From positions 1 to 27,441 of the IMG/VR virus record IMGVR_UViG_3300021962_006617: a stretch of DNA of 27,441 nt, one strand, 5' to 3'. Shown here one piece after another: positions 2,709 to 15,864 of the stretch (position 1 is the stretch's first letter; the number at the start of each line of letters is the position of its first letter). Source of the stretch: a virus. The notes under the pieces were generated by a model. The model did no database searches and was not told where the DNA came from. It worked only from the letters and a program-made list of their open reading frames with translations. Made by a program: the position numbers and the translations under genes.

Positions 2709-2737
2709 ATTATATAGCAAAAAGAAAGGGGCGTCAA
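2709..2737 (-). promoter_or_regulatory. Strong sigma70-type promoter of the hli-petF-petE operon
   Basis: TTGACG (2737-2732), 17-nt spacer, TATAAT (2714-2709) on the minus strand; RNA start expected near 2702. The -35 box lies inside the loop of the terminator 2725-2746 that ends the upstream operon, so stop and restart signals are nested. Confidence 0.85.
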
Positions 2738-2746
2738 TCCCCCTTT
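2717..2746 (-). terminator. Terminator of the glycan operon
   Basis: Stem AAAGGGG (2725-2731) with CCCCTTT (2740-2746), 8-nt loop, then CTTTTTG on the minus strand. It follows the last carbamoyltransferase stop by about 20 nt. The loop holds the -35 box of the next promoter. Confidence 0.85.
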
Positions 2747-2764: not shown

Positions 2765-4549
2765 TTATTTAAGAAACAAATAATCTTCAAGGATCAGAAA
2801 ATCTAATTCAGTATTTTCCAATACATAAAAAGCATCTTCAACAGTTGTGAGAATCGGATTACCTTTGATATTAAAAGATGTGTTTAGAATCACAGCATCG
2901 TGCCCACGATTATCAAGTTCTGTCAGAATGTCATAGAACAATTTGTGTTGATCTCTGGTTACAGTTTGAAGTCTTGCAGTACCATCAACATGAGTAATTG
3001 CAGGTAGTTTTTCCCGATACTCTTCCTTTACCATCGGAGCAAAAGACATATATGGAGAAGCGAAAGCATTATCAAAATAGATATCCCTATCCTCTTCTCT
3101 GCAGACAGGACCAAAAGGTCTAAACCATTCTCTAAACTTAACTTTGGCATTTAAAGTATCCTTCATTTCAGGAATACTTGGATCACATATGATGCTACGA
3201 TTTCCCAGAGCACGAGGTCCAACTTCAGAATACCCAATCATCGTGGCACCAATCTTTCCTTCCTTGATTAAATCTACAATTTTAGAAACATTCATATCTA
3301 CTACTTTACCAATTTTATTATACTTATTATAATACTCTGGAATTTTTTCTCTGTCAAGAATATCAAACCCACAATAAACAGAAAACTTATCTTTCATAGT
3401 TTTATCTATGGAACAAAAATGTCCATAAGATAATCCATCATCACCAGGATCTGGTGAGACAAAAAGTTTTCGATTTGTCTTGTTCAAATATTCAACAACC
3501 TTCTGATTAAAGATTACATTCAAAGCACATCCGCCTGAGAATACTACGTTAAGATCATACTTATCAAGATAAGGTTTAATTAATTTCCAACAAAGTTCTT
3601 CAAATACATGTTGATTAGTTGCTGCTAAATCATAACTATGTTGACCAGATAAACAATTTATTGTTGACTTTAGAAGAGTAGTAATGTCGTCTAAAGAATT
3701 TTGATTATCGGATAAAAATACACTTATCACATCCTCATTTTCTTCTCGATTAGATAACAAAGTACTTATCATTTGTTGTCCAACCATTATAGAAACCATG
3801 GGATTTTGAGCATCTGCTGGAGTCATCATATAATTTTGTTTAATGACATCAATCCATTCTTTTCTGACTTTACCATATCCAACTAAACCCATCAACTTTC
3901 CAGCATTTGAGTTTAAATAATCTGCAGAAACATACTTTTGATTTGAATCAAACATTTTTTCAAGATGATCCGTCTTATTTTTATCCTCGATTTCAGATAT
4001 TAATTGAAGCGGAGATGCATATTGACCTGGGGTAAATACAAGTGCATTCTCTGAATTTAAAGTCAATAAAACATCAACTTTCTTATCAGATATTTTGAGG
4101 ATGCTATATCCAATAAGAGGACATTGTTGTGGATCTTTCACAATACCATAATGATTATTTTCCAACCCACCACCATCTAATGATATAACCAGTGCATCTT
4201 TAAATCCACTTTGGTGATAAGCACCAATACAATGAGAAGTATGATGACCCATTGAAATGAATTTTGATTTTGGAAATAATCTTTTCATCAAAGAAAAATC
4301 TTCATCAATAACCACACTGTAGAGAATATAACTTGGTTCTTCTTTCAGTTGTGATTTAATATATTCTAAAAATTTAATTCTATCTTCAAACTTAGAATCT
4401 TGCTCATTTTCTTTTCTGAATTTTTTAAATGAGCAATGTTTTATCTTAGTAAATCTTTCAAGTTGAAAGATTCTTAGTTGATTATTTTTGTCTACACAAG
4501 TTACAGAACAATCGTGTCCACCATGAATAGCAAGTATTTTAGAATTCAT
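2765..4549 (-). CDS. Full-length O-carbamoyltransferase (NodU/CmcH/TobZ family)
   Basis: Would transfer a carbamoyl group from carbamoyl phosphate and ATP to a sugar hydroxyl. 594 residues, the normal family length. N-terminal Kae1-like (ASKHA) domain, about 1-418: IHGGHDCS at 8-15, the His-rich GHHTSHCIGAYHQSGF block, DGGG, and VVFSGGCALN. C-terminal YrdC-like domain, about 419-594: GYSEVGPRALGNRSI and LNTSFNIKGNPI. In TobZ the C-terminal domain makes carbamoyl-adenylate and the Kae1-like domain passes the group to the acceptor. Third of three tandem copies and the only one with both domains; its ATG overlaps the stop of copy 2 (ATGA). Last gene of the operon. Confidence 0.92.
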   Translation of the reverse strand: MNSKILAIHGGHDCSVTCVDKNNQLRIFQLERFTKIKHCSFKKFRKENEQDSKFEDRIKFLEYIKSQLKEEPSYILYSVVIDEDFSLMKRLFPKSKFISMGHHTSHCIGAYHQSGFKDALVISLDGGGLENNHYGIVKDPQQCPLIGYSILKISDKKVDVLLTLNSENALVFTPGQYASPLQLISEIEDKNKTDHLEKMFDSNQKYVSADYLNSNAGKLMGLVGYGKVRKEWIDVIKQNYMMTPADAQNPMVSIMVGQQMISTLLSNREENEDVISVFLSDNQNSLDDITTLLKSTINCLSGQHSYDLAATNQHVFEELCWKLIKPYLDKYDLNVVFSGGCALNVIFNQKVVEYLNKTNRKLFVSPDPGDDGLSYGHFCSIDKTMKDKFSVYCGFDILDREKIPEYYNKYNKIGKVVDMNVSKIVDLIKEGKIGATMIGYSEVGPRALGNRSIICDPSIPEMKDTLNAKVKFREWFRPFGPVCREEDRDIYFDNAFASPYMSFAPMVKEEYREKLPAITHVDGTARLQTVTRDQHKLFYDILTELDNRGHDAVILNTSFNIKGNPILTTVEDAFYVLENTELDFLILEDYLFLK

Positions 4550-5757
4550 AATTCAATCACCTTACCATTCTTTTTATATTTTTCATAATACTCTGGAATC
4601 TTTTCTCTGTCAAGAATATCGAGACCACAATAGACTGAGAATTTATCATCAAAATTTTTGTCTATAGAGCAAACATGTCCATAAGATAATCCATCGTCGC
4701 CAGGGTTAGGAGATACGAAAAGTTTTCGATTTGTTTTATCCAAATATTCCATAATCTTTTGATTGGACAATACATTTAATGCACACCCACCAGAAAAGAC
4801 AACATCCAAATCACATTCATCAATATAAGGTTGAATCAACTCCCAACAAAGTTCCTCAAAGACATGTTGGTTTGTCGCAGCCAAATCATAACTTTCCTGT
4901 CCAGAAAACCAATTCTGATCTGGACGCACTCCAATAATGCTGGCAAAACTAACCAATAAAGATTTTATATGTTTTGGTGTGTGAACCTCATCAGGTCCTG
5001 CAAGATAAACTAATTTAACAGAATTAATCCATTCTTTTCTGACTTTACCATAGGCAGCAAGACCCATCAATTTACCAGCACAAACCTTAGCCATGTTTCT
5101 CAGTTTCCAGAAAGGAGAATCATTGAGTTTTATATTTGCATCAGATTGCTCAAGAAGAGACTTTATAAATTCTGTAATTCTTTTATCTCCCTTATAAGGA
5201 TCAATTTCAGATATGGCAGGAACTAAAGCAGTATAACTTCCTGGAGTAAAATTCATGGCACCAGGAAAATTAGTTGCTAATAAAACATCAACCTTTTTAT
5301 CAAGTATCTTGACAATACTATAACTTATTTCCACCCCTTTAGGGTTTTTAGTTATACCATAATGATTATTATCGAAACCTCCACCATCTAATGAAATAAC
5401 TAATGCATCTTTAAATCCACTTTGATGATAGGCACCGATGCAATGAGACGTGTGATGCCCCATCTCAATAAATTTAGATTCTTTAAATTTACTTTTTAAA
5501 ATATCAAGATAATATCGGTTCCCAAAATAACTATAGAGAACATATTTTGGTTCTTCTTTGAGTTGTGATTTAATATGATCTAAAAAACTTTTCTTTTGTT
5601 CTATTCTAATATCTGTCGTATAACTATCACACTCAAAATTATCATGTTTTATCTTTGTAAATCTTTCAAGTTGAAAAATTCTTACTTGATTATTTTTATC
5701 CACAAAGGTAGCAGAACAGTCATGTCCACCATGAATAGCCAAGATCTTTGAATTCAT
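4546..5757 (-). CDS. Carbamoyltransferase paralogue, Kae1-like domain only (copy 2)
   Basis: 403 residues, clearly homologous to the N-terminal domain of the full-length copy: MNSKILAIHGGHDCSATFVD at the start, the same GHHTSHCIGAYHQSGF block and SGGCALNV. It ends GKVIEL exactly where the C-terminal domain begins in copy 3, and that stop overlaps the copy 3 start. The ending is clean, with no remnant of the missing domain, so it is a shortened gene rather than a frameshift. Motif residues are intact, suggesting function, perhaps using carbamoyl-adenylate made by copy 3 (inference). 122 nt are identical to copy 1. Confidence 0.88.
   Translation of the reverse strand: MNSKILAIHGGHDCSATFVDKNNQVRIFQLERFTKIKHDNFECDSYTTDIRIEQKKSFLDHIKSQLKEEPKYVLYSYFGNRYYLDILKSKFKESKFIEMGHHTSHCIGAYHQSGFKDALVISLDGGGFDNNHYGITKNPKGVEISYSIVKILDKKVDVLLATNFPGAMNFTPGSYTALVPAISEIDPYKGDKRITEFIKSLLEQSDANIKLNDSPFWKLRNMAKVCAGKLMGLAAYGKVRKEWINSVKLVYLAGPDEVHTPKHIKSLLVSFASIIGVRPDQNWFSGQESYDLAATNQHVFEELCWELIQPYIDECDLDVVFSGGCALNVLSNQKIMEYLDKTNRKLFVSPNPGDDGLSYGHVCSIDKNFDDKFSVYCGLDILDREKIPEYYEKYKKNGKVIEL
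4772..4893. repeat. 122-nt tract identical to 5980-6101
   Basis: Base-for-base identical to the corresponding stretch of copy 1, while sequences on either side and the matching part of copy 3 are diverged. Covers the segment from NQHVFEELCW to SGGCALNV. Looks like recent gene conversion or recombination. Confidence 0.9.
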
Positions 5758-6956
5758 AATCTAGTAACCTTACCCAACTTGTCGTATTTATTATAATACT
5801 CTGATATGTTATCTCTATCTAAAATATCAAGTCCACAATAAACCGAAAACTTATCACTTAATGTTTTATCTACAGAACATACATGACCATAAGATAATCC
5901 TTCATCACTTGGAGTAGGAGATATAAAAAGTTTTCGATTTGTTTTACTTAAATATTGACTGACTTTTTGATTGAAAACAACATTTAATGCACACCCACCA
6001 GAAAAGACAACATCCAAATCACATTCATCAATATAAGGTTGAATCAACTCCCAACAAAGTTCCTCAAAGACATGTTGGTTTGTCGCAGCCAAATCATAAC
6101 TATCTCGACCAGATAAACAATTTTGTGTTAATGGTTTACCAATAGATTTAGATAGTCCAACAATAGATGATTTTAGATTGGATGGTAAATGAATTTCTTT
6201 CGGAAGAAGTAGATAAATGTTTCTTATAGAATCAATCCATTCATTTCTTATCTTCCCATAAGAAGACAATCCCATCAATTTACCAGCACATATTCTTGCC
6301 TTACTTCTCAATCTCCAAAAAGGAGAATCTTCTTGACTAATATATTGAATTGAACTATCTTCCTTTTGTGCCTCTTCCATACACTCTGCAATTTCAACAT
6401 CAGACTTGTATGGATCAATTTCAGATATTAAAGGCACAACAGCAGTATAAGTTCCAGGAGTAAACTTAGGTGAATTTAAAGAATCTGAAGTCAAAAGAAC
6501 ATCTACTTTCCCATTGTCAATTCTAAGAATACTATATGTTATTTCCGTTCCATCTAATTCTTTAGATATTCCATAATGACCATACTCTATACCACCACCA
6601 TCTAAAGATATGACAAGGGCATCTTTAAATCCACTTTGATGGTAAGCACCAATACAATGAGAGGTATGATGTCCCATTTTTATAAACTTTGCAGTTTTAA
6701 AATAAGTCTTTACTATTCCCAGATACTCTTCAGAAATATAACTGTATAAAACATATTGAGGTTCTTCTTTCAATTCAGATTTGGCATGTTGTAAGAACTG
6801 ATGTCTAGTCTTATCTGTCAAATCTGTATGTTCAAGAGTATCATTCTTGATCTTTGTATATCTTTCCAATTCAAAAATCCTTAATTGATTATTTTTATCA
6901 ACTAAGGTTATCGAACAATTATGTCCTCCATGTATGGAAAGAATTTTTGAATTCAT
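5754..6956 (-). CDS. Carbamoyltransferase paralogue, Kae1-like domain only (copy 1)
   Basis: 400 residues from the ATG at 6956, preceded by AAGGATAAT as ribosome site; an upstream reading to 7037 would run into the GT25 gene and is rejected. Same domain and motifs as copies 2 and 3 (IHGGHNCS, GHHTSHCIGAYHQSGF, VVFSGGCALNV), ending GKVTRL at the same domain boundary as copy 2. First of the three in transcription order. The variable middle part (about 150-260) differs from copies 2 and 3, as expected if acceptor specificity has diverged. No C-terminal domain. Confidence 0.88.
   Translation of the reverse strand: MNSKILSIHGGHNCSITLVDKNNQLRIFELERYTKIKNDTLEHTDLTDKTRHQFLQHAKSELKEEPQYVLYSYISEEYLGIVKTYFKTAKFIKMGHHTSHCIGAYHQSGFKDALVISLDGGGIEYGHYGISKELDGTEITYSILRIDNGKVDVLLTSDSLNSPKFTPGTYTAVVPLISEIDPYKSDVEIAECMEEAQKEDSSIQYISQEDSPFWRLRSKARICAGKLMGLSSYGKIRNEWIDSIRNIYLLLPKEIHLPSNLKSSIVGLSKSIGKPLTQNCLSGRDSYDLAATNQHVFEELCWELIQPYIDECDLDVVFSGGCALNVVFNQKVSQYLSKTNRKLFISPTPSDEGLSYGHVCSVDKTLSDKFSVYCGLDILDRDNISEYYNKYDKLGKVTRL
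5980..6101. repeat. 122-nt tract identical to 4772-4893
   Basis: Partner of the tract in copy 2; spaced 1208 nt apart, the distance between equivalent positions of the two genes. Direct repeat that could allow deletion or further copy-number change. Confidence 0.9.
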
Positions 6957-6957
6957 A

Positions 6958-7743
6958 TTATCCTTGACGATCTTCTGTGACTCTCCCCAAATAAGGATCA
7001 TAATCCATGAGTTCTGATATTCCAACATCAGAACCACTTTGTTCCCAAAAATTTCTCAATCCATCATGACTTGATCGATGAATAAAATCAATATGCTCTG
7101 GATGAATAGAAGATCCCAGTTCAATCTTATAAAGAAATAGTGGTATAGAAAAAGTATTACCAGAGTTGTAAATTAGATCATCAGCAACTGGTCTAGGTTT
7201 TACACCATTATCAAGTTTATACTTATCACCACGAACATGATGCTTCAGGAGTTTTTCGGCATGGTGTCTCGTAATCATATATGCTGCTGTAGAAAAGTCA
7301 TTTACAAATCTCTTATGTAGTTTGACGTGTAAAGGACCTGTGCAGATAATAGCAAGTTGAATAACATCCCAATCATATGGAACCTTTGATGCAAAATCAG
7401 TCCAGGTAAAATTCCAAAATCTAACAGGATCTAGATCAACATCATCTTCCATAATGATTGCATATGGACTATCAGATGTTTCCATCCAGTGTTTAATTGC
7501 TTTCAGATGACTAGTAATACATCCAATCTCACCAGAGGTCATCATCTCTGGATAACGTCCTTTAATAATATCACTGAGATCATCTTCTCTACCATCATAT
7601 GCAGATATACGAGTATAGTTTGTTATCTCCCAATACTTCATTTGATCTTCCATATATTCCATTCGTTCTGGTTGATCATCCAGATTGAGATAATAAATTG
7701 GAGCAATATTTTTCAGTTTGAAAGCAGATTTATTTTTATCCAT
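6958..7743 (-). CDS. Glycosyltransferase family 25 (LPS-type)
   Basis: 261 residues. GT25 motifs in order: YYLNLDDQPERMEYM (17-31), GEIGCITSHLKAI (71-83), the acidic EDDVDLD (99-105), STAAYMITRHHAEKLL, and PVADDLIY near 185-192. Such enzymes add galactose or related sugars to LPS cores or to collagen-like proteins. No membrane segment; acts in the cytoplasm on nucleotide-sugar donors. Eight bases overlap with the gene before; the stop lies one base before the carbamoyltransferase copy 1 start, so they are translated together. Confidence 0.88.
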   Translation of the reverse strand: MDKNKSAFKLKNIAPIYYLNLDDQPERMEYMEDQMKYWEITNYTRISAYDGREDDLSDIIKGRYPEMMTSGEIGCITSHLKAIKHWMETSDSPYAIIMEDDVDLDPVRFWNFTWTDFASKVPYDWDVIQLAIICTGPLHVKLHKRFVNDFSTAAYMITRHHAEKLLKHHVRGDKYKLDNGVKPRPVADDLIYNSGNTFSIPLFLYKIELGSSIHPEHIDFIHRSSHDGLRNFWEQSGSDVGISELMDYDPYLGRVTEDRQG

Positions 7744-8596
7744 CTTGGTACGATTTTTTTAATAAAATAGCAGTCTGTAAAAATGAACTGTTCGATGTCT
7801 TCATCATATCAGATTTTGAAAGAATATACAAGTCAACAATTGCTTGCCGTACACTCTCATCAGATCTCTCAACATTAAATGGATATTCAACTCCAGTATC
7901 ATCAACGATTACAGATCTCCATTCACCTTCATCAGTTAGTTTTTCAACGTAACTAGTTTTTGGATATACAGAAACATTTTCCAATTGGTTGAATTTATTT
8001 TCTAGTTCTTCATCATCTGAACAAACAAAATATTTGGTATTTGTATTGTCAGATACTTGATTAAAAATTTGGTCAAAGTTTGGTTTATGAGGATCGTAGA
8101 AATCAGTGTTTCTTAAATGGACTCCAACGAAAGACTCTCCCAAATTTGTATCAATAAAATTATTTGCATTATCTACCAAGTCAGAATTAAATCTAATACC
8201 TCTTATCACATCCATAATCTGATCTTCACTAAGATAAGAAAGAAGTGTATCATTATTATAAACTATCTTTTGTTTTTCAGTATTTGTACAAAACTCCGAA
8301 ATAGTTTCAAGAGACCCAAAACTTTCTGGGTGATAAACATTTGTATTGAAATTCAAAAAATTACCATGCATTAAAAATTCATAATCCTGAACGTTCGTCT
8401 CAAAGTAATTAAGATTCTCTTCTAAGACATTAAAATCAGTATTAAACAAAGTGCTAAACTTTGATCTACACCAATTAGTAAGTGGCCAAACAATAATTGG
8501 TTCAAGTCCAGTTTTCTTACAAATGGAAAGTCCACAAACTAAAGAATTGAATCTGTTACCAAATCCACCATCACAATAAATGTAAATTCTTTTCAT
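7736..8596 (-). CDS. Fucosyltransferase-like protein (NodZ/O-FucT-type fold)
   Basis: 286 residues. The N-terminus has GGFGNRFNSLVCGLS (10-24), the glycine/Asn-Arg loop of GT-B fucosyltransferases, then VGVHLRNTDF (157-166), whose HLR resembles the donor-binding HxR motif of alpha-1,6- and GT11 fucosyltransferases, and KYFVCSDD and a C-terminal SNSSFLQTAILL. Suggests use of GDP-L-fucose or a similar GDP-sugar. Overlaps its neighbours by 4 and 8 nt. Exact family number not certain. Confidence 0.7.
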   Translation of the reverse strand: MKRIYIYCDGGFGNRFNSLVCGLSICKKTGLEPIIVWPLTNWCRSKFSTLFNTDFNVLEENLNYFETNVQDYEFLMHGNFLNFNTNVYHPESFGSLETISEFCTNTEKQKIVYNNDTLLSYLSEDQIMDVIRGIRFNSDLVDNANNFIDTNLGESFVGVHLRNTDFYDPHKPNFDQIFNQVSDNTNTKYFVCSDDEELENKFNQLENVSVYPKTSYVEKLTDEGEWRSVIVDDTGVEYPFNVERSDESVRQAIVDLYILSKSDMMKTSNSSFLQTAILLKKSYQDG

Positions 8597-9180
8597 ACTA
8601 CTACAACTAATCTATCATCAGATTTTTTTCTTAAATCAAGTTCAACAATATAAACTTCTTTTGATGGATAAAGATTGAGAATAAAAGACTTAAGATCTTC
8701 TGCCTCTTCTTTAGTCTGAACATCTTCACAAATATAGATTCCACCATCATTAATATATGGATAGTAGTTTTCAAAATTTTTCATCTGCTGAGTCAATTTA
8801 TGATTAGCATCATCCAAAATAATATCAAAACTCAAGTCTTGAAGATTTTCTTTAATGGAGGTAGGACTTTCACAATCAAAATTAAAAAGAGTAATTCTTT
8901 CGTGACTGTTGATTTCCTCCATTACAGCGTCACCATCAACTGGTTCATACTGATAATGCCACTGACCATCTTTCTGAGAAAAATCTTCGATACCATAAAT
9001 CTGGGAATTCTCAAAATACTTTTCCCACATTTTTAGAGATCCACCAAAAAGAACTCCAATTTCAAGTACATTCAATTGTTCAGTTCTACGTTCACAAAAC
9101 GTGTCCTCATACCACTCAATGTAATTATGTGCAGTACCCTTATCAGTCTTAAATTGTGTATGAATATCAGTTAGTTTCAT
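8593..9180 (-). CDS. SAM-dependent methyltransferase-like (CmcI/sugar O-methyltransferase type)
   Basis: 195 residues from the ATG at 9180, chosen for the GGAG placed nine bases upstream; an ATG at 9213 lacks this. Opens with TDIHTQFKTDKGTAHNYIEWYE, a pattern known from sugar O-methyltransferases related to MycE/cephalosporin hydroxylase; then VLEIGVLFGGSLKMW (SAM-binding loop) and DIILDDANHKLTQQ (metal/active-site Asp-His). Probably methylates a sugar hydroxyl. Starts within the end of the preceding GT gene (14-nt overlap). Confidence 0.78.
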   Translation of the reverse strand: MKLTDIHTQFKTDKGTAHNYIEWYEDTFCERRTEQLNVLEIGVLFGGSLKMWEKYFENSQIYGIEDFSQKDGQWHYQYEPVDGDAVMEEINSHERITLFNFDCESPTSIKENLQDLSFDIILDDANHKLTQQMKNFENYYPYINDGGIYICEDVQTKEEAEDLKSFILNLYPSKEVYIVELDLRKKSDDRLVVVV

Positions 9181-9970
9181 ACTCTTTTCTCCAATCATCG
9201 TAGACTTGCTCATTTAAATAACCATCCAGATCTAAATCATTTTGTGTTTTATTTTGTACGGACATTATTCTTTTTTCAAAATTAACTACTGGGTTATCTT
9301 TTGTCGATCCATTACTCTTAAAATGAACAGAATATGTACCATCTACTAATTCTAAATCGGCACAAACTTTCAACTCATCCAAGTAACCAATTTTTAAATC
9401 ATCTAAGTTGTTTCTAAGAGTAAGATTTAATGCTGGCGTTTCATGTGGAAAAGGAGTTTTATTTTCAACAAACTCTTCCATTCGATTAATCCACCTTTGA
9501 ACAAATCTTTTACACTTTGGAATATTATTAAAGATAACAAAACTTGCAATTTCACTGATGTGAATTCCATCACCTCTTGTATGACCACCAGTACTCATTG
9601 TGGTAACTTGAATATCATAATATGGCGCAATGATAGGTTCAAGATCTCTCAAGACACAAACATCACTATCAATCATAATGACGGGATGATCAAAATCAAT
9701 TACATGAAAAAGTTTATTAAGAGATTTGGTTTTCATCTGAGTAGCTTTTACCCATCCCTCAGAATGAACACCACTATACTCATCAACACAATCAGTATCT
9801 AAGATACTTACTTTATCTTTATCCTTGATTGATTTTTGGTACTGATCAAGTCCACTATCTGCAACATAAATTCTATCTAAATTTTTACAATTTTGTATTG
9901 CTGAACTTGTAAAAATATCCAAAAAAGGATAGTAAGATTTATTAGCAGTTGTAAAAATACTATAGTTCAT
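9167..9970 (-). CDS. GT-A type glycosyltransferase
   Basis: 267 residues. Rossmann-like start MNYSIFTTANKSYYPFL, then VIMIDSDVCVL with the metal-binding DSD (101-103) typical of GT-A enzymes, and HTRGDGIHISEIASFVIFNN further on, resembling GT8-like nucleotide-diphosphosugar transferases. No membrane helix. Sixth from the end of the operon's transferase block. Donor and acceptor unknown. Confidence 0.72.
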   Translation of the reverse strand: MNYSIFTTANKSYYPFLDIFTSSAIQNCKNLDRIYVADSGLDQYQKSIKDKDKVSILDTDCVDEYSGVHSEGWVKATQMKTKSLNKLFHVIDFDHPVIMIDSDVCVLRDLEPIIAPYYDIQVTTMSTGGHTRGDGIHISEIASFVIFNNIPKCKRFVQRWINRMEEFVENKTPFPHETPALNLTLRNNLDDLKIGYLDELKVCADLELVDGTYSVHFKSNGSTKDNPVVNFEKRIMSVQNKTQNDLDLDGYLNEQVYDDWRKEYETN

Positions 9971-9976
9971 TTGTTA

Positions 9977-10513
9977 TCAAAGTTGAGCTACAATAATGTC
10001 GTCAGGAATACAACCATCCTCAAAAGAAATTTTATAGTCTGGGTTGATATCAGTTATTGCTTCAATCAAAAGTTCTTCATCAAGATCTTCACCCCAATTA
10101 CTTCCAACCATTCCAAAGATTCTGCGATCATCAACCAACAAAGTATGGGTCTTAATTGGATGCTCAAGAAGAGCTTCCAGTTCAAATGGAAGTGGGCACT
10201 TGTATTCACCTAATACATCCCCATCCCAATGAGCGTCTAACCAAAAAGTAGCAGGAGCATCTACCTTTGAAATAATATCTTTAAAGACTTTAAATGTATC
10301 CCCTTCGATAATTTCGACTACACCTTCTTCAATTTCTTTTTGAAATTTTTCGGTGTTATACTTTACTTTTTCTGGATCAATTTCAATCGAATAGATTTTT
10401 TTGAATCCACATTCTAAAGCAACTTCGACTGCTTCTCCCCATAGAGTTCCAGTCTCTACAAAAATATCGTTCTTATATTTTTGCAATACTTCTTTTTTTA
10501 ATGTTGTAGACAT
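9977..10513 (-). CDS. Methyltransferase-like Rossmann protein
   Basis: 178 residues: IFVETGTLWGEAVEVALECG (SAM-loop-like), IYSIEIDPEKVKYN, EGDTFKVF, FWLDAHWDGDVLGEY and LLVDDRRIFG. This matches a group of small proteins in surface-polysaccharide clusters annotated as methyltransferases. The WLDAHWDG segment replaces the usual catalytic motif, so the reaction is uncertain. Spaced 3 nt from the amidotransferase gene and 6 nt from the GT gene. Confidence 0.68.
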   Translation of the reverse strand: MSTTLKKEVLQKYKNDIFVETGTLWGEAVEVALECGFKKIYSIEIDPEKVKYNTEKFQKEIEEGVVEIIEGDTFKVFKDIISKVDAPATFWLDAHWDGDVLGEYKCPLPFELEALLEHPIKTHTLLVDDRRIFGMVGSNWGEDLDEELLIEAITDINPDYKISFEDGCIPDDIIVAQL

Positions 10514-10516
10514 ACT

Positions 10517-11839
10517 TTAAAATCCTCTTTTAATGTTAACTTCAAACGGATAGTTTGATTTAGTCAGATATTCGTCCAAAACAGATTTATATTTTGAATT
10601 TTTTAATTCGTGATCCAACCAAAGAAATTCTTGTACAACGTATTTATCCAGATATGGATAGCGGGTTTCAATACCATATGACCCCGCAACATACTCCTCT
10701 TTTGCTAGATAAGAAACCATTGTACTTCCATAAAAAGATGCCCAAGGGAAAATAGTGGTAAGATCTTCTGGAAATAATCCTCCAAAATTACTGTGAAGAA
10801 ACTTCTTTTCACCATTGAATCCATAATCTGAAAAAATTTCATCAGATCCAGATCCAGAAAGATAAACTTTTTTACCTTCCTTTTTAGCATTATCACAAAT
10901 CATAGATAGACCACAAGAACCATTATCATCCTGAAGTCGTCTATCAAATTCATTATAATCACTGCTAGAAGAATAAATTCGATATTTAAATTCTTCTACA
11001 TTTCTATTGATGTAATCTCTATATTGCCAACGATTATCTGAAAGATATTGTCCAGAAGAATTGCTATTAAACATAGAAAATCTTTTATCTAAGATCTCCT
11101 GGTTTTCACTTCCAACAACAGCATAAGCTTTATAGGAAACGTTTTGTTTGTTCAATTCACATGCAATTGCACCACTATCATATCCACTGGATAAACCAAT
11201 AAAAATATTTTCTCTAAGATTAGTTGTGCGTTTCCGAATAGAATTTTCAAAAGCAAAAATCCAGTCAGAAAAGTCTGTCTTATATTGTTTTAGATCAAAG
11301 TCATAAACAGAAAACTGATCAAGTAATTTTCTGGTTTGCAAGTCAAAGACTTGTGCAGTATTTGCATGTAACTTGGTTGCCGTTCTAAATCCAAGTGCCT
11401 TAACTGCAGACTCATAAGTTGCAACGGCAAGACTTTCACCAATTGAAAACCACAATGGTTTTGTGGCAAATACGTCTGTGGAAATAATAAATCGATCATT
11501 CTTAAAATCAACTAGAACAATCGCAAATTCACCATCAAGTTTTTTTACAAATTTATTTCCATACTTTTTATACAAAGAAATTAAACACTCACCATCAGAC
11601 GTATACTCACCAAACTCTTGATAATTATATATTTCGCCATTGTATACACAGACGATTTGATCATCATGATCTACAAAAGGTTGTTCAGTAAATTGCCCAG
11701 TAATGGACAAAATATTATGGGTGAATGTATATTCATTAACTTCAATGGTCTTAGTTGCATCTGGACCACGAAATTTCATGAAATGATTCACATGATCAAA
11801 ATCATCAATATCTTTATCAGTAAAAAGAAAACTACACAT
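10517..11839 (-). CDS. asnB: Asparagine-synthase-like glutamine amidotransferase
   Basis: 440 residues, shorter than bacterial AsnB (about 550). N-terminal class II glutaminase: Cys2 after Met removal, RGPD (24-27), YNGEIYN (66-72), LDGEFA (101-106). C-terminal ATP pyrophosphatase: GLSSGYDSG (215-223; the usual SGGxDS with Ser for the first Gly) and LSGSGSDEIF (327-336). The shortening is mainly in the synthetase domain. In glycan clusters such proteins amidate sugar carboxylates, for example uronic acids, rather than aspartate; the dehydrogenase-like neighbour (12537-13313) could supply a carboxylate (inference). Confidence 0.88.
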   Translation of the reverse strand: MCSFLFTDKDIDDFDHVNHFMKFRGPDATKTIEVNEYTFTHNILSITGQFTEQPFVDHDDQIVCVYNGEIYNYQEFGEYTSDGECLISLYKKYGNKFVKKLDGEFAIVLVDFKNDRFIISTDVFATKPLWFSIGESLAVATYESAVKALGFRTATKLHANTAQVFDLQTRKLLDQFSVYDFDLKQYKTDFSDWIFAFENSIRKRTTNLRENIFIGLSSGYDSGAIACELNKQNVSYKAYAVVGSENQEILDKRFSMFNSNSSGQYLSDNRWQYRDYINRNVEEFKYRIYSSSSDYNEFDRRLQDDNGSCGLSMICDNAKKEGKKVYLSGSGSDEIFSDYGFNGEKKFLHSNFGGLFPEDLTTIFPWASFYGSTMVSYLAKEEYVAGSYGIETRYPYLDKYVVQEFLWLDHELKNSKYKSVLDEYLTKSNYPFEVNIKRGF

Positions 11840-12540
11840 CAGAATGTTCTACTATGATTTGATATGATTACTTGAGGCATAAGTGTATTACCTCTAATGG
11901 TATTAGCAACTCCAGGGAGAATAGATAGGTTGACACCAAGTTGATGACATACGAAAGGAAAACTTAGTTGATCCCTAGATGAAAACATACAGATTTGCTC
12001 CCACCACATTAATCCCATTTTTTGAGTTAACGTATTATTACGTTGAAATCTTACAGGAATCTCATACAATCCATTACCTTCAGGATAGCACATATCCTTA
12101 TAAAAAGCAAGTTGATCATCAATTAAATTTGGATAATCAAATTTTATTTGTTTAATAAATTCACCCTCTTCATAAATGCACTGACGTTGTGGATGTTTAA
12201 AGACTGCAACATCAGCATCCTTTAAATAAGTTTCAATCAGTTCATTTGGATCTTTTTCTAGGGTGTGAGTGGAATCAATCCAAAAATAGTAATCATAGTC
12301 TGGAAGAAATGCAAACGGGATTATTTTATAAATCTTTGCATTTCTTCTATTTGCATAAACTGGATCTGCTGAAAACTGGATAGCAGAGTGTTGGTTCCAG
12401 TATTGAAGATCTGGATGTTCAATCCAATCTTTACTATCGGTCTCATTATCTACAAAAGCATGATAATCAACATTATCAAATTTCTTTTGTGGTAAAAGAC
12501 TGTTTGTTCCTATTGAAGCAGTTATAACAGCAATCTTCAT
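11839..12540 (-). CDS. TOD1/MUCI70-like (DUF616) glycosyltransferase
   Basis: 233 residues. Carries DYYFWIDSTHTL (84-93, a WIDS in place of the usual DxD) and the signature KHPQRQCIYEE (115-125), both characteristic of the DUF616/TOD1-MUCI70 family, a GT-A-like group known from plant pectin-related enzymes and bacterial capsule clusters. C-terminal LPQVIISNHSRTF. Overlaps the amidotransferase start by one base and the dehydrogenase gene by four. Sugar unknown. Confidence 0.75.
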   Translation of the reverse strand: MKIAVITASIGTNSLLPQKKFDNVDYHAFVDNETDSKDWIEHPDLQYWNQHSAIQFSADPVYANRRNAKIYKIIPFAFLPDYDYYFWIDSTHTLEKDPNELIETYLKDADVAVFKHPQRQCIYEEGEFIKQIKFDYPNLIDDQLAFYKDMCYPEGNGLYEIPVRFQRNNTLTQKMGLMWWEQICMFSSRDQLSFPFVCHQLGVNLSILPGVANTIRGNTLMPQVIISNHSRTF

Positions 12541-13313
12541 GGTTCAACACTTCTATGCTTATCATTCAATTCTCTCATAAACTTAATCAATGGACTCTGA
12601 CTAAACTTTTCAAGTTCATAATTATCTTTTGTTAAGCAATGACTTTCCCAACCAAACTTACCATCACTACCAGGAACTTGAGAATGAGAATGTCCAATCC
12701 TTTCATCAAGTCCAACCATCTCAGCAAAGTCTGTATAAGTTGACTCACAACCTTGTTGCTGGTGTGCTAGATACATCTCATTAAAGAAAGTAACTCTGAG
12801 TGCCAAAAAGGCATTTTCAGCATACTTAACTAGTGCTGCTGTTTTGATATCAGTGATTCTAATATCTTTAACATGAGTCAGTCTAGTTTTAAAAATATCT
12901 GCAACTTTCATAGCAGCATCTTCATTGCCACCAATAATAAAGAATTTTTGCCCCTGGAACATTTTAATAGGATTAGTCTTATTCAAATACTCTGGACTGT
13001 GTAAAATTCGAATATTAGTATATCGATTAACAACATCATAGTAAAACTCTGGAGTTGCAGTTGACTTACAACAAACCGGCGTTCCCTCTAGCATATTTTC
13101 ATTCAATTCCGAAAGAATTGAATCTAATAATTTAAATCCTTCTGCCTTTGGGGTATCAACAGAAACAAAGACAGCATCAAATTCTTGATTTTTAAAATCA
13201 CTAATTTTATTATCATTGAATTTTGGATCAACAATAACTTTTTCTCCTTCAGAAAAAATTGATGCAACAGCGGATCCAACAAATCCAAACCCAACAATCA
13301 AAACTTTGTACAT
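12537..13313 (-). CDS. Nucleotide-sugar dehydrogenase-like protein, short form
   Basis: 258 residues; UDP-glucose/GDP-mannose dehydrogenases are normally 390-440. The NAD-binding domain is present (VGFGFVGSA, 7-15; VSVDTPKAEG, 50-59; CKSTATPEF; HSPEYL), as is the central helical domain with Lys163 and Asn167 (KYAENAFLALRVTFFNE) and the motif GWESHCLTKD with candidate catalytic Cys226 and Lys229. The C-terminal UDP-binding domain is missing. Such short forms occur in phage genomes, so the truncation is probably old. Either an oxidising enzyme with altered substrate or a reductase-like relative. Confidence 0.78.
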   Translation of the reverse strand: MYKVLIVGFGFVGSAVASIFSEGEKVIVDPKFNDNKISDFKNQEFDAVFVSVDTPKAEGFKLLDSILSELNENMLEGTPVCCKSTATPEFYYDVVNRYTNIRILHSPEYLNKTNPIKMFQGQKFFIIGGNEDAAMKVADIFKTRLTHVKDIRITDIKTAALVKYAENAFLALRVTFFNEMYLAHQQQGCESTYTDFAEMVGLDERIGHSHSQVPGSDGKFGWESHCLTKDNYELEKFSQSPLIKFMRELNDKHRSVEP

Positions 13314-14024
13314 TTACTTAACTCCATGCTTTTCTTTACAATATGCAAGTTCACTATTAAATTTTTTCTGATAATCTTCTTTGAGATACATTGAAGATAT
13401 TTGATCTTCGTGAACTCTATTAGATACTAATACATCATGATAATATACAGGATCTCCATAAACTGCTTTAGCATGATAATAAAATTCACAATCCATCATC
13501 ATTACTAAACTTGGATCAAATTTCACATTTTCAAAAACTTCTCGTCTTGCTGCCAAGACGGATGGAGAACTGATTGTATTTACACCATTAATTATATCAT
13601 CATTCCATGTTGGATATAAATCACCATAAAAAGAATTTCCGTCATTTTGAGTATGATTACAAGCACATAACAACCACTTTGTATCTTCCTCAAAAGCATT
13701 ATAAATTTTTTCTAACGCCTCATCATCATAGAAAAAATCATCTTGGAACATCACCTTAATAATTTCCCCTGAACAATTATCAATTGCATTATTAGTGTTT
13801 GCTGGTCCATTCCCTCGTCGATCTTCATTCTTAACATAAACGATTTTGAACTTACCTCTATATTGATAGATAACTTTCAATAATTCATTATCAATACTAT
13901 GATCTGAAATAACAACTTCAAAGTCTTTAAACGTTTGAATTTCAATAGTCCTGAACAAATCTTCCAGGAATTCATTTCCCCTCCCCTTAGATTCGTAAGT
14001 GGGAATAGCAATAGACATCTTCAT
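13314..14024 (-). CDS. Family 2 glycosyltransferase
   Basis: 236 residues from the ATG at 14024, which overlaps the stop of the GT11 gene as ATGA; the GTG at 14036 is less likely. GT2 features: SIAIPTYESKGRGNEFL at the start, DFEVVISDHSID, RGNGPANTNNAID, FQDDFFYDDEAL with the DD of the metal-binding site, and SSPSVLAARREVF. No membrane segment, so a soluble transferase adding one sugar. Donor not predictable. Confidence 0.88.
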   Translation of the reverse strand: MKMSIAIPTYESKGRGNEFLEDLFRTIEIQTFKDFEVVISDHSIDNELLKVIYQYRGKFKIVYVKNEDRRGNGPANTNNAIDNCSGEIIKVMFQDDFFYDDEALEKIYNAFEEDTKWLLCACNHTQNDGNSFYGDLYPTWNDDIINGVNTISSPSVLAARREVFENVKFDPSLVMMMDCEFYYHAKAVYGDPVYYHDVLVSNRVHEDQISSMYLKEDYQKKFNSELAYCKEKHGVK

Positions 14025-14824
14025 AAAATTATCCACCCATCACAATAAAGATCTTTAGTATTTTTATCAGAATTATTAGGACCAAACCACAGAGATGGTG
14101 CAACAACTTTTCCAGTATTTGCTAACCATGCTCCCCACCAACTAAAGGTACTGTTGGCAATAATAAAATCGGAACACCTAGACATTAAATAAAGATCATG
14201 ATAGGGTCCATTTCCTTCAGAAACAAGAAACCTATCATCGGAAAAAATTGATTGTTCTTTACACCAAGATGGATCATCAGAGAAGATTACTACTTGACGA
14301 TCACCATCAAACTGCTGAAGTGCTTCCTCATAGTATTCAATAGGGAGATTGGCATGATTGGCAGAGTTAATTAAAAAGTCTCCTCTACGAATATGTAAAG
14401 CAATAGGATTATCAAACTGATCTACAATATCAGCACATTCAGTAACATACTTATCTTGAAAAGTAAAGTCTTGACGAATTTGATCTTCAATATGCTTGAA
14501 ATATTTTTCAGTTTGAAAATATCCAAAAAGAGAAACATCTTTAGATGAATCTAATTGAAAAAATTCTGGACTGAATTCAAAACTACTTTCTTGTACATAT
14601 CCTTCTGAAGGAAGATTTAATGTCATACAAGAAGTTAATTTTAAAGAAAAAACATCAAACAATTCAATTCTTAAACGATTACCCAACCCATCAATAACTA
14701 TTTCTCTATGATTTGGGATTGTAAAATCGGTTTCAATTTTTTTCGCAATACCTTTAGTTGCGGCATATTGAAACATCTGGTTTCCCAGTTGCCCCAACTT
14801 ACCCAAATGGTTAAACCCAATCAT
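14021..14824 (-). CDS. GT11 fucosyltransferase (alpha-1,2 type)
   Basis: 267 residues from the ATG at 14824 (ATGA overlap with the epimerase stop). Diagnostic GT11 motifs: GQLGNQMFQYAATKGIA (11-27), HIRRGDF (144-150), and NSTFSWWGAWLA near residue 230. These enzymes transfer L-fucose from GDP-L-fucose. The gene directly upstream encodes a GDP-mannose 3,5-epimerase-like enzyme, whose product GDP-L-galactose differs from GDP-L-fucose only by a 6-OH, so this enzyme may use L-galactose (inference). Confidence 0.9.
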   Translation of the reverse strand: MIGFNHLGKLGQLGNQMFQYAATKGIAKKIETDFTIPNHREIVIDGLGNRLRIELFDVFSLKLTSCMTLNLPSEGYVQESSFEFSPEFFQLDSSKDVSLFGYFQTEKYFKHIEDQIRQDFTFQDKYVTECADIVDQFDNPIALHIRRGDFLINSANHANLPIEYYEEALQQFDGDRQVVIFSDDPSWCKEQSIFSDDRFLVSEGNGPYHDLYLMSRCSDFIIANSTFSWWGAWLANTGKVVAPSLWFGPNNSDKNTKDLYCDGWIIL

Positions 14825-15864
14825 TTTTGTATTTGTTCGGAAATCCAATTGTAAGTCTTGCGAATTCCTTCCTCAAGAGTTTGTGAGTAGTCCCAACCAA
14901 GTTCTTTGCGGATCAGATCATTATTTGAATTACGACCACGAACACCTAAAGGACCAGGAACATGATTTTTCTCAACCTTTTTACCAGCAACTTTAGCAGC
15001 AGTATCAACCAGTTGATCAATTGTTACCATCTCTTCCGATCCAATATTGACTGGCCCGATGAAGTTAGAATCCATCAGACGACGAGTTGCTTCAATACAT
15101 TCATCAATGTAAAGGAATGAACGAGTTTGTTTTCCATCACCCCAAACATCAATACTACCACCCTCTTCTGGAAGGTATGCTACTTTACGGCAGATTGCTG
15201 CTGGTGCCTTTTCACGTCCACCATCCCAGGTTCCTTCAGGACCAAAGATGTTGTGATAACGAGCAACCCGTACAGGAATCCCGTAATTACGATGATAAGC
15301 GAAAAAGAGTCGCTCTGAGAACAGTTTCTCCCAACCATATTCAGAATCTGGGTTAGCAGGGTAAGCTGATTCTTCACGGCAGTCGGGGTTATCAGGATCG
15401 AGTTGGTTGTGTTCTGGATACATACAAGCAGATCCAGAATAAAAAATCTTAGTAGTATTTTTACCAACCCTTTCATTCATCTGATGTTGCATTTCAAGAA
15501 CATTCAGATTAATTGTTGCTGAGTTGTGCATGATATCAGCATCATTATCACCAGTGAATACAAAACCAGCACCACCCATATCAGCAGCAAACTGATAAAT
15601 TTCATCAAATACCTGAATATAACGATAAGGAACTGAGTGATAGAAGTTACCAGCATCCCCCTTATATTCAAGCACACGACGAACAAAATCTACATCACGT
15701 AGATCTCCAAGTACAAATTCATTTGCTTCGTGCTTTGAATACTCTGGATACTTAAGGTCTACACCACGAACCCAGTATCCTTCGGAACGCAGTCTGCGAA
15801 CCATATGACTTCCAATGAAACCACCAGCACCAAGAACAAGTGCCTTTTTGATATATTGACTCAT
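14821..15864 (-). CDS. GDP-mannose 3,5-epimerase-like SDR enzyme
   Basis: 347 residues, extended SDR fold. NAD loop GAGGFIGSH (12-20), Cys147 in SGSACMYPE, Tyr176/Lys180 of YGWEK, and GGREKAPAAICRK (215-227, Lys219). The stretches GDGKQTRSFLYIDEC, PVNIGSEEMVTIDQL and GPLGVRGRNSNNDLI follow the plant GDP-mannose 3,5-epimerase (GME) closely, including the Cys and Lys used as acid/base in the plant enzyme. It would convert GDP-D-mannose to GDP-L-galactose (or GDP-L-gulose). First gene of the operon, about 13 nt behind the predicted RNA start; no clear Shine-Dalgarno. Higher GC than the downstream genes, suggesting a separate origin. Confidence 0.88.
   Translation of the reverse strand: MSQYIKKALVLGAGGFIGSHMVRRLRSEGYWVRGVDLKYPEYSKHEANEFVLGDLRDVDFVRRVLEYKGDAGNFYHSVPYRYIQVFDEIYQFAADMGGAGFVFTGDNDADIMHNSATINLNVLEMQHQMNERVGKNTTKIFYSGSACMYPEHNQLDPDNPDCREESAYPANPDSEYGWEKLFSERLFFAYHRNYGIPVRVARYHNIFGPEGTWDGGREKAPAAICRKVAYLPEEGGSIDVWGDGKQTRSFLYIDECIEATRRLMDSNFIGPVNIGSEEMVTIDQLVDTAAKVAGKKVEKNHVPGPLGVRGRNSNNDLIRKELGWDYSQTLEEGIRKTYNWISEQIQK

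Follow-up and report, generated by a model that had tools for sequence, protein, structure and literature searches.

Three tandem genes on the minus strand of IMG/VR virus record IMGVR_UViG_3300021962_006617, whose full length of 27,441 bases is referred to here as the window, encode the related carbamoyltransferases c1, c2 and c3. Each copy contains a Kae1-like transfer domain, and the YrdC-like activating domain is present in c3. The YrdC-like domain is known to make carbamoyl-adenylate (carbamoyl-AMP), and the Kae1-like domain to transfer the carbamoyl group (PMC9654439, PMC6022934). We consider it probable that the three proteins constitute one O-carbamoylation module in which the YrdC-like domain of c3 would feed three Kae1-like transferases with different acceptor hydroxyls, c1 and c2 having arisen by tandem duplication. 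As a design, the sharing of a single YrdC-like domain by several Kae1-like domains is well supported; the activity of the copies, the passage of carbamoyl-AMP between chains and the distinct acceptors of the three copies are what we infer from sequence. The genes and their junctions are located as follows.

5754..6956, minus strand: c1, stand-alone Kae1-like carbamoyltransferase domain, 400 amino acids (PF02543 55 bits, PF16861 none)
4546..5757, minus strand: c2, stand-alone Kae1-like carbamoyltransferase domain, 403 amino acids (PF02543 63 bits, PF16861 none)
2765..4549, minus strand: c3, full-length carbamoyltransferase with Kae1-like and YrdC-like domains, 594 amino acids (PF02543 67 bits, PF16861 198 bits)
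2771..3274, minus strand: YrdC-like (PF16861) part of c3, residues 426-593, the only one in the window
5754..5757, minus strand: ATGA stop-start overlap of c1 and c2, 4 nucleotides (nt), with AAGG about 10 nt 5' of the c2 start
4546..4549, minus strand: ATGA stop-start overlap of c2 and c3, 4 nt, with AAGG about 10 nt 5' of the c3 start

The start of c1 lies 1 nt past the stop codon of an upstream glycosyltransferase gene. The identity between c1 and c2 is 65%, and both share 60-64% with c3, to which they can be aligned up to about residue 418, ending between the PF02543 and PF16861 regions. The Pfam results thus agree with the sequence-only reading of this DNA, which had described copy 3 as a two-domain protein and copies 1 and 2 as acceptor domains, with start codons that overlap or directly follow the preceding stop. 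Matches of c3 in the PDB were VtdB, TobZ, NovN and GdmN. By domain content, c3 is a TobZ-type member of the CmcH/NodU class, and c1 and c2 are classified as isolated transfer domains with the YrdC-like domain missing from the chain. None of the three copies matched PF00814, the TsaD family model, at E<=0.001, and a Pfam scan of the copies gave no acylphosphatase or zinc-finger domains as present in HypF; the hypF model scored 18-22 bits on these open reading frames (ORFs) against a cut-off of 466. A match of c2 to FSH1 (21 bits) was treated as noise.

The transfer sites are intact in all copies. In GdmN the iron is coordinated by H133, H137, D156 and D333 (PMC9633730), with which H96, H100, D119 and D351 of c1 align, while H12 of c1 aligns with H14 of TobZ, the N-terminal catalytic histidine. 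The iron ligands (H-x3-H, D, D) and the catalytic histidine are retained in c1, c2 and c3, so the loss of catalytic residues that would have spoken against functional short copies did not occur. These five residues are invariant in all stand-alone Kae1 (63/63) and full-length (214/214) sequences. The YrdC-like motifs of c3 are intact as well, both KxR (K471, R473) and SxN (S558, N560), and are invariant in 221/221 complete YrdC sequences, comprising 214 full-length proteins and 7 stand-alone ORFs. An AlphaFold2 model of c1, with a predicted local distance difference test score of 87 and a predicted template modelling score of 0.84, was closest to NovN, GdmN, VtdB and TobZ (over about 320 residues, with Z 23-25 in the top rows); the next-best matches were TsaD/Kae1 proteins with Z 15-18. 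The model of c3 matches TobZ across both domains. The short copies had been thought to end exactly at the domain boundary, and their stop codons do fall between the two Pfam domains. However, the YrdC-like domain in the GdmN crystal structure is said to begin at G368 (PMC9633730), and since the c1 model can be aligned with TobZ, GdmN and NovN as far as residue 389 or so, c1 and c2 retain some 15-25 residues, one helix, beyond that boundary.

Contigs from two other metagenomes (L005 and L006) carry ORFs of 400, 403 and 594 amino acids with the same junctions as in the window. These contigs are identical across the 13.2 kb compared and each shares about 90% DNA identity with the window. The differences between the two genotypes are mostly at third codon positions, and the ratio of nonsynonymous to synonymous substitution rates (dN/dS) was 0.095 for c1, 0.035 for c2 and 0.031 for c3, with 0.038-0.076 for neighbouring genes in the same genotype pair. 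Purifying selection was also found for those split and stand-alone relatives that are sufficiently diverged to be judged. Because the second genotype has equal ORFs and dN/dS is low, c1, c2 and c3 are neither assembly artefacts nor pseudogenes and recent decay is ruled out; the stop codons in related phages that would have marked pseudogenes are absent from the relatives. It is accordingly scarcely credible that c1 and c2 are remains of tandem duplication without a function, or filler DNA of the kind considered for lipopolysaccharide gene clusters of cyanophages. This explanation is already largely refuted by dN/dS values of 0.035-0.095, ORFs of equal length in DNA that is about 90% identical, active sites that are intact and recurrence in several lineages.

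The sequence-only reading had proposed a search for stand-alone Kae1-like domains in other cyanophages. This search yielded far more than expected, among them a form in which YrdC and Kae1 are naturally encoded by separate genes. Tblastn searches and annotated regions gave stand-alone Kae1 ORFs near a full-length gene in the isolates S-SSM7 (369 amino acids) and Sf-FS3 (385 amino acids). The isolates S-RIM44 and Sf-FP1 have a YrdC-only gene (about 180 amino acids) that overlaps a Kae1-only gene (362-365 amino acids); these genomes gave one match per domain, and the split pair represents the only copies found. Separate overlapping genes for the two domains also occur in IMG/VR relatives, and scans of IMG/VR yielded dozens more viral contigs with stand-alone Kae1 ORFs, up to three per full-length gene. 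Counted as distinct loci, a full-length gene is followed by a stand-alone ORF in 19 cases, in 8 more with a second full-length gene, by two stand-alone ORFs in 3 and by three in 1 (L148); the split pair occurs in 5 and two stand-alone genes preceding a full-length gene in 2 (the window and L005), the remaining loci being cut or fragmentary. No YrdC remnant was present downstream of any stand-alone Kae1 ORF. The layout is recurrent in marine phages and not unique to this phage.

The split pairs, at 4465-6086 of the S-RIM44 locus (L024) and 4983-6610 of the Sf-FP1 locus (L025), have the reversed, HypF-like order and a thymidylate synthase gene as neighbour. For the S-RIM44 Kae1 gene, the start annotated at 5073 seems too late, as the ORF begins at 4998. 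At L148:2748-8981 three stand-alone Kae1-like ORFs come after a full-length carbamoyltransferase; in the tree described below, the first nests among full-length partner sequences, indicating a separate origin. SynMITS9220M01 (L013:4723-7242) encodes an 839-residue protein, annotated as hypothetical, in which about 315 glycosyltransferase-looking residues precede a complete carbamoyltransferase. A Flavobacteriales metagenome-assembled genome (TMED113, L263) holds a frame-broken full-length carbamoyltransferase and a stand-alone Kae1-like ORF of marine-phage type; this is possibly a mis-binned phage contig.

Proteins of these kinds are already contained in PHROG 1601 and 20469, both cyanophage 'Nol-like carbamoyltransferase' families; phrog_20469 has 181 positions, and the S-RIM44 YrdC-only protein matches it end to end. 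Their annotations do not tell apart transfer-only, activation-only and full-length forms, nor do they mention linkage. A literature search that covered few subscription journals found no paper on stand-alone domains of this enzyme class.

The short copies could also be non-catalytic partners in a hetero-oligomer with c3, binding the acceptor or regulating c3. GdmN acts as a homodimer whose subunits each contribute a loop to the acceptor pocket of the other (PMC9633730), and the gene overlaps favour co-assembly. We nevertheless regard such a role as unlikely, given that iron ligands and catalytic histidine occur in every stand-alone sequence and that in the S-RIM44 genome no transferase domain of this kind was found other than the stand-alone Kae1 ORF.

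Stand-alone Kae1 genes are nearly always close to a source of the activating domain. A YrdC-bearing ORF was present in the fetched locus for 52 of 58 distinct complete stand-alone Kae1 proteins, at a distance of 0 to about 5.7 kb and always on the same strand. Five of the other six are on short contigs, and for the sixth, L189, PF16861 matches twice in another part of the contig; one exception lies at about 7 kb. The apparent loners without PF16861 (L112, L114, L138, L139, L144, L149 and L190) were set aside, their contigs all being fragments of 4.9-15 kb. In a tree of 108 rows, c1, c2 and c3 fall together in a single group that lies within the full-length relatives, and the state changes between forms five times as drawn, of which at least four are forced by well-supported branches. 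The tree was made by a quick method and has some long branches, so that changes were counted from the starred branches (four) and gains and losses of forms are not distinguishable with certainty.

Among 146 Cyanobacteriota genomes, all 26 strong matches were in frames of 576-752 amino acids and none (0/26) was stand-alone. Most small-genome Cyanobacteriota had no full-length enzyme as a possible donor source. Weak cyanobacterial PF02543 matches of about 340-370 amino acids were set aside as probably TsaD-like, since they covered only the C-terminal part of the profile, at about 20-28 bits. A scan of genome contigs with a close alignment found no relative, and with a wide alignment it returned distant bacterial enzymes, nearly all full-length. 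These surveys bear on the explanation that stand-alone Kae1-like proteins use another donor, such as threonylcarbamoyl-AMP from host TsaC or carbamoyl-AMP of the host, and do not need the phage YrdC. Kae1-like folds do accept different acyl-adenylates, as in TsaD versus TobZ and HypF (PMC9654439), and TsaD/Kae1 structures are among the weaker matches of the c1 model. We find this decidedly unlikely, because it leaves both the nearby YrdC-bearing gene and the paired YrdC and Kae1 genes unexplained, and most small-genome cyanobacteria show no full-length enzyme.

The origin of c1 and c2 may be reflected in the linker of c3, where one further feature was noted.

3293..3295, minus strand: codon of c3 Met419 at the Kae1/YrdC linker, a possible duplication breakpoint

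The linker reads ATGAATGTTTCTAAA, and the gene starts read ATGAATTCTAAA (c3) and ATGAATTCAAA (c1 and c2). The junctions between Kae1 domains differ from the c3 linker by about one base, just 5' of the ATG; the linker sequence is absent from the nearest relatives. Tandem duplication from start to linker would account for a cut at the domain boundary. The in-frame ATG of Met419 has AAAG (window) or AAGG (L005) 8 nt upstream, and an internal start would yield a free YrdC protein like gp035 of S-RIM44. Identical tracts differ between the genotypes: c1 and c2 share 122 nt in the window and 25 in L005, while c1 and c3 share 87 nt in L005 and 20 in the window. Such genotype-specific tracts point to ongoing conversion among the copies. 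They also suit the idea that the extra copies are mainly recombination partners that alter the acceptor-binding half of c3, with their own activity secondary. That is very improbable, however, since each copy keeps its start, coupling and strong purifying selection, and stand-alone copies in other lineages have diverged far from their full-length partner. The segment matching acceptor-side helix 1 of GdmN and other loops remain divergent between the copies, which is why different acceptors are proposed.

The genetic context suggests what these acceptors may be. The window carries cyanophage markers (a psbA fragment, ferredoxin, alternative oxidase, phage lysozyme and six tRNA genes), and at the DNA level it resembles Synechococcus phages. 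A series of minus-strand glycan genes extends downward from 15864, and c1, c2 and c3 close the operon.

6958..15864, minus strand: co-directional glycan genes upstream of c1 (ORFs and domain scans)
within 6958..15864, minus strand: genes for a glycosyltransferase (GT) of GT25 type, an O-fucosyltransferase (O-FucT)-like protein, a methyltransferase-like protein, a nucleotide-diphospho-sugar transferase and an AsnB-like amidotransferase
within 6958..15864, minus strand: genes for a TOD1/MUCI70-like transferase, a UDPG/GDP-mannose dehydrogenase, GT2, GT11 and an epimerase
2725..2746, minus strand: terminator-like hairpin immediately 3' of c3, the presumed operon end (consensus match only)

Because of these neighbours, a sugar is the most likely acceptor. 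The AsnB-like glutamine amidotransferase/asparagine synthase gene (10517-11839) could serve for amide formation on a sugar acid; its region is common to S-SCSM1 at 73% DNA identity. A known phage enzyme of the same PF02543/PF16861 family, from metagenomic phage-type contigs, is the 5-hydroxymethylcytosine carbamoyltransferase discovered by MetaGPA, a full-length protein of 63 kDa encoded beside thymidylate synthase and deaminase genes; a glycosyltransferase neighbourhood is the context reported for unmodified contigs (PMC8670742). In contrast to the MetaGPA enzyme, the window copies lie among glycosyltransferases, and no thymidylate synthase/dCMP hydroxymethylase or deaminase domain was found among the scanned window ORFs, the neighbours of c1-c3 being glycan genes. 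DNA carbamoylation is therefore disfavoured by gene neighbourhood.

In the proposed mechanism, the YrdC-like domain of c3 would convert carbamoyl phosphate and ATP to carbamoyl-AMP, which would be used by three transferase domains: c1, c2 and the Kae1-like half of c3, of which c1 and c2 would be tandem duplicates. The acceptors would be different hydroxyls, most likely on sugars that the upstream gene products synthesise or attach. Docking, exchange with the Kae1-like half of c3 and short-range diffusion are possible routes of carbamoyl-AMP to c1 and c2. A shared activator is the most economical reading because the transfer sites are intact in chains without activation, YrdC is linked and natural two-gene splits exist. 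The same idea in the sequence-only reading, one activator feeding several transfer domains, thus gained support as a design from intact sites, linkage, recurrence and splits, whereas passage between chains keeps its conjectural standing.

Several observations weigh against this reading. S-SSM7 and Sf-FS3 carry further full-length enzymes, which makes the partner uncertain, and linkage is inherited within lineages, so that the 52 cases are not independent. Sequence divergence between the copies is the sole basis for the proposed acceptor differences, and constraint is somewhat lower on c1 than on the other two copies. In TobZ and HypF the labile carbamoyl-AMP passes a channel between fused domains, although TsaC and TsaD work as separate proteins (PMC9654439, PMC6022934). 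Moreover, the Kae1-like half of c3 itself should occupy the YrdC docking face. With this face occupied and the adenylate labile, c1 and c2 could be supplied only through exchange or diffusion, or from a free YrdC product that was not seen.

Several known systems come near the proposed module. Like TobZ, GdmN, NovN and VtdB, O-carbamoyltransferases of the CmcH/NodU class, all three copies have the iron site and catalytic histidine, and c3 has the same two-domain order; unlike them, c1 and c2 are without the YrdC-like domain, giving three transferase domains per activating domain. Separate polypeptides for activation and transfer, as with c1 and c2 and especially in S-RIM44, are found in the TsaC/TsaD (Sua5/Kae1) pair of N6-threonylcarbamoyladenosine (t6A) synthesis, but c1 and c2 match PF02543 and not the TsaD family, the expected donor is carbamoyl-AMP and the acceptor is probably a sugar, not tRNA. 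HypF has the YrdC-like before the Kae1-like domain, the same order as the split S-RIM44 genes; however, it is one chain that carbamoylates HypE, and its acylphosphatase and zinc-finger domains were not found in the window copies.

Those enzymes of this class with a known structure that we encountered have both domains in one chain, TobZ with a channel for the labile intermediate. We give about even chances to the broader proposal that marine phages have repeatedly split the fused enzyme into a system of one activator and many transferases, up to one YrdC to four Kae1 domains (L148), with acceptors added by copying the transfer domain. The transfer-only copies and two-gene splits make the handover of carbamoyl-AMP between chains directly testable, and bear on the evolution of the YrdC-Kae1 pairing of t6A synthesis and on whether cyanophage glycan clusters function. 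If the proposal is true, fused and TsaC/TsaD-like split forms coexist today and offer a natural model of the partnership between YrdC and Kae1 in ancient times, and transfer-only domains would be handy modules for carbamoylating new sugars.
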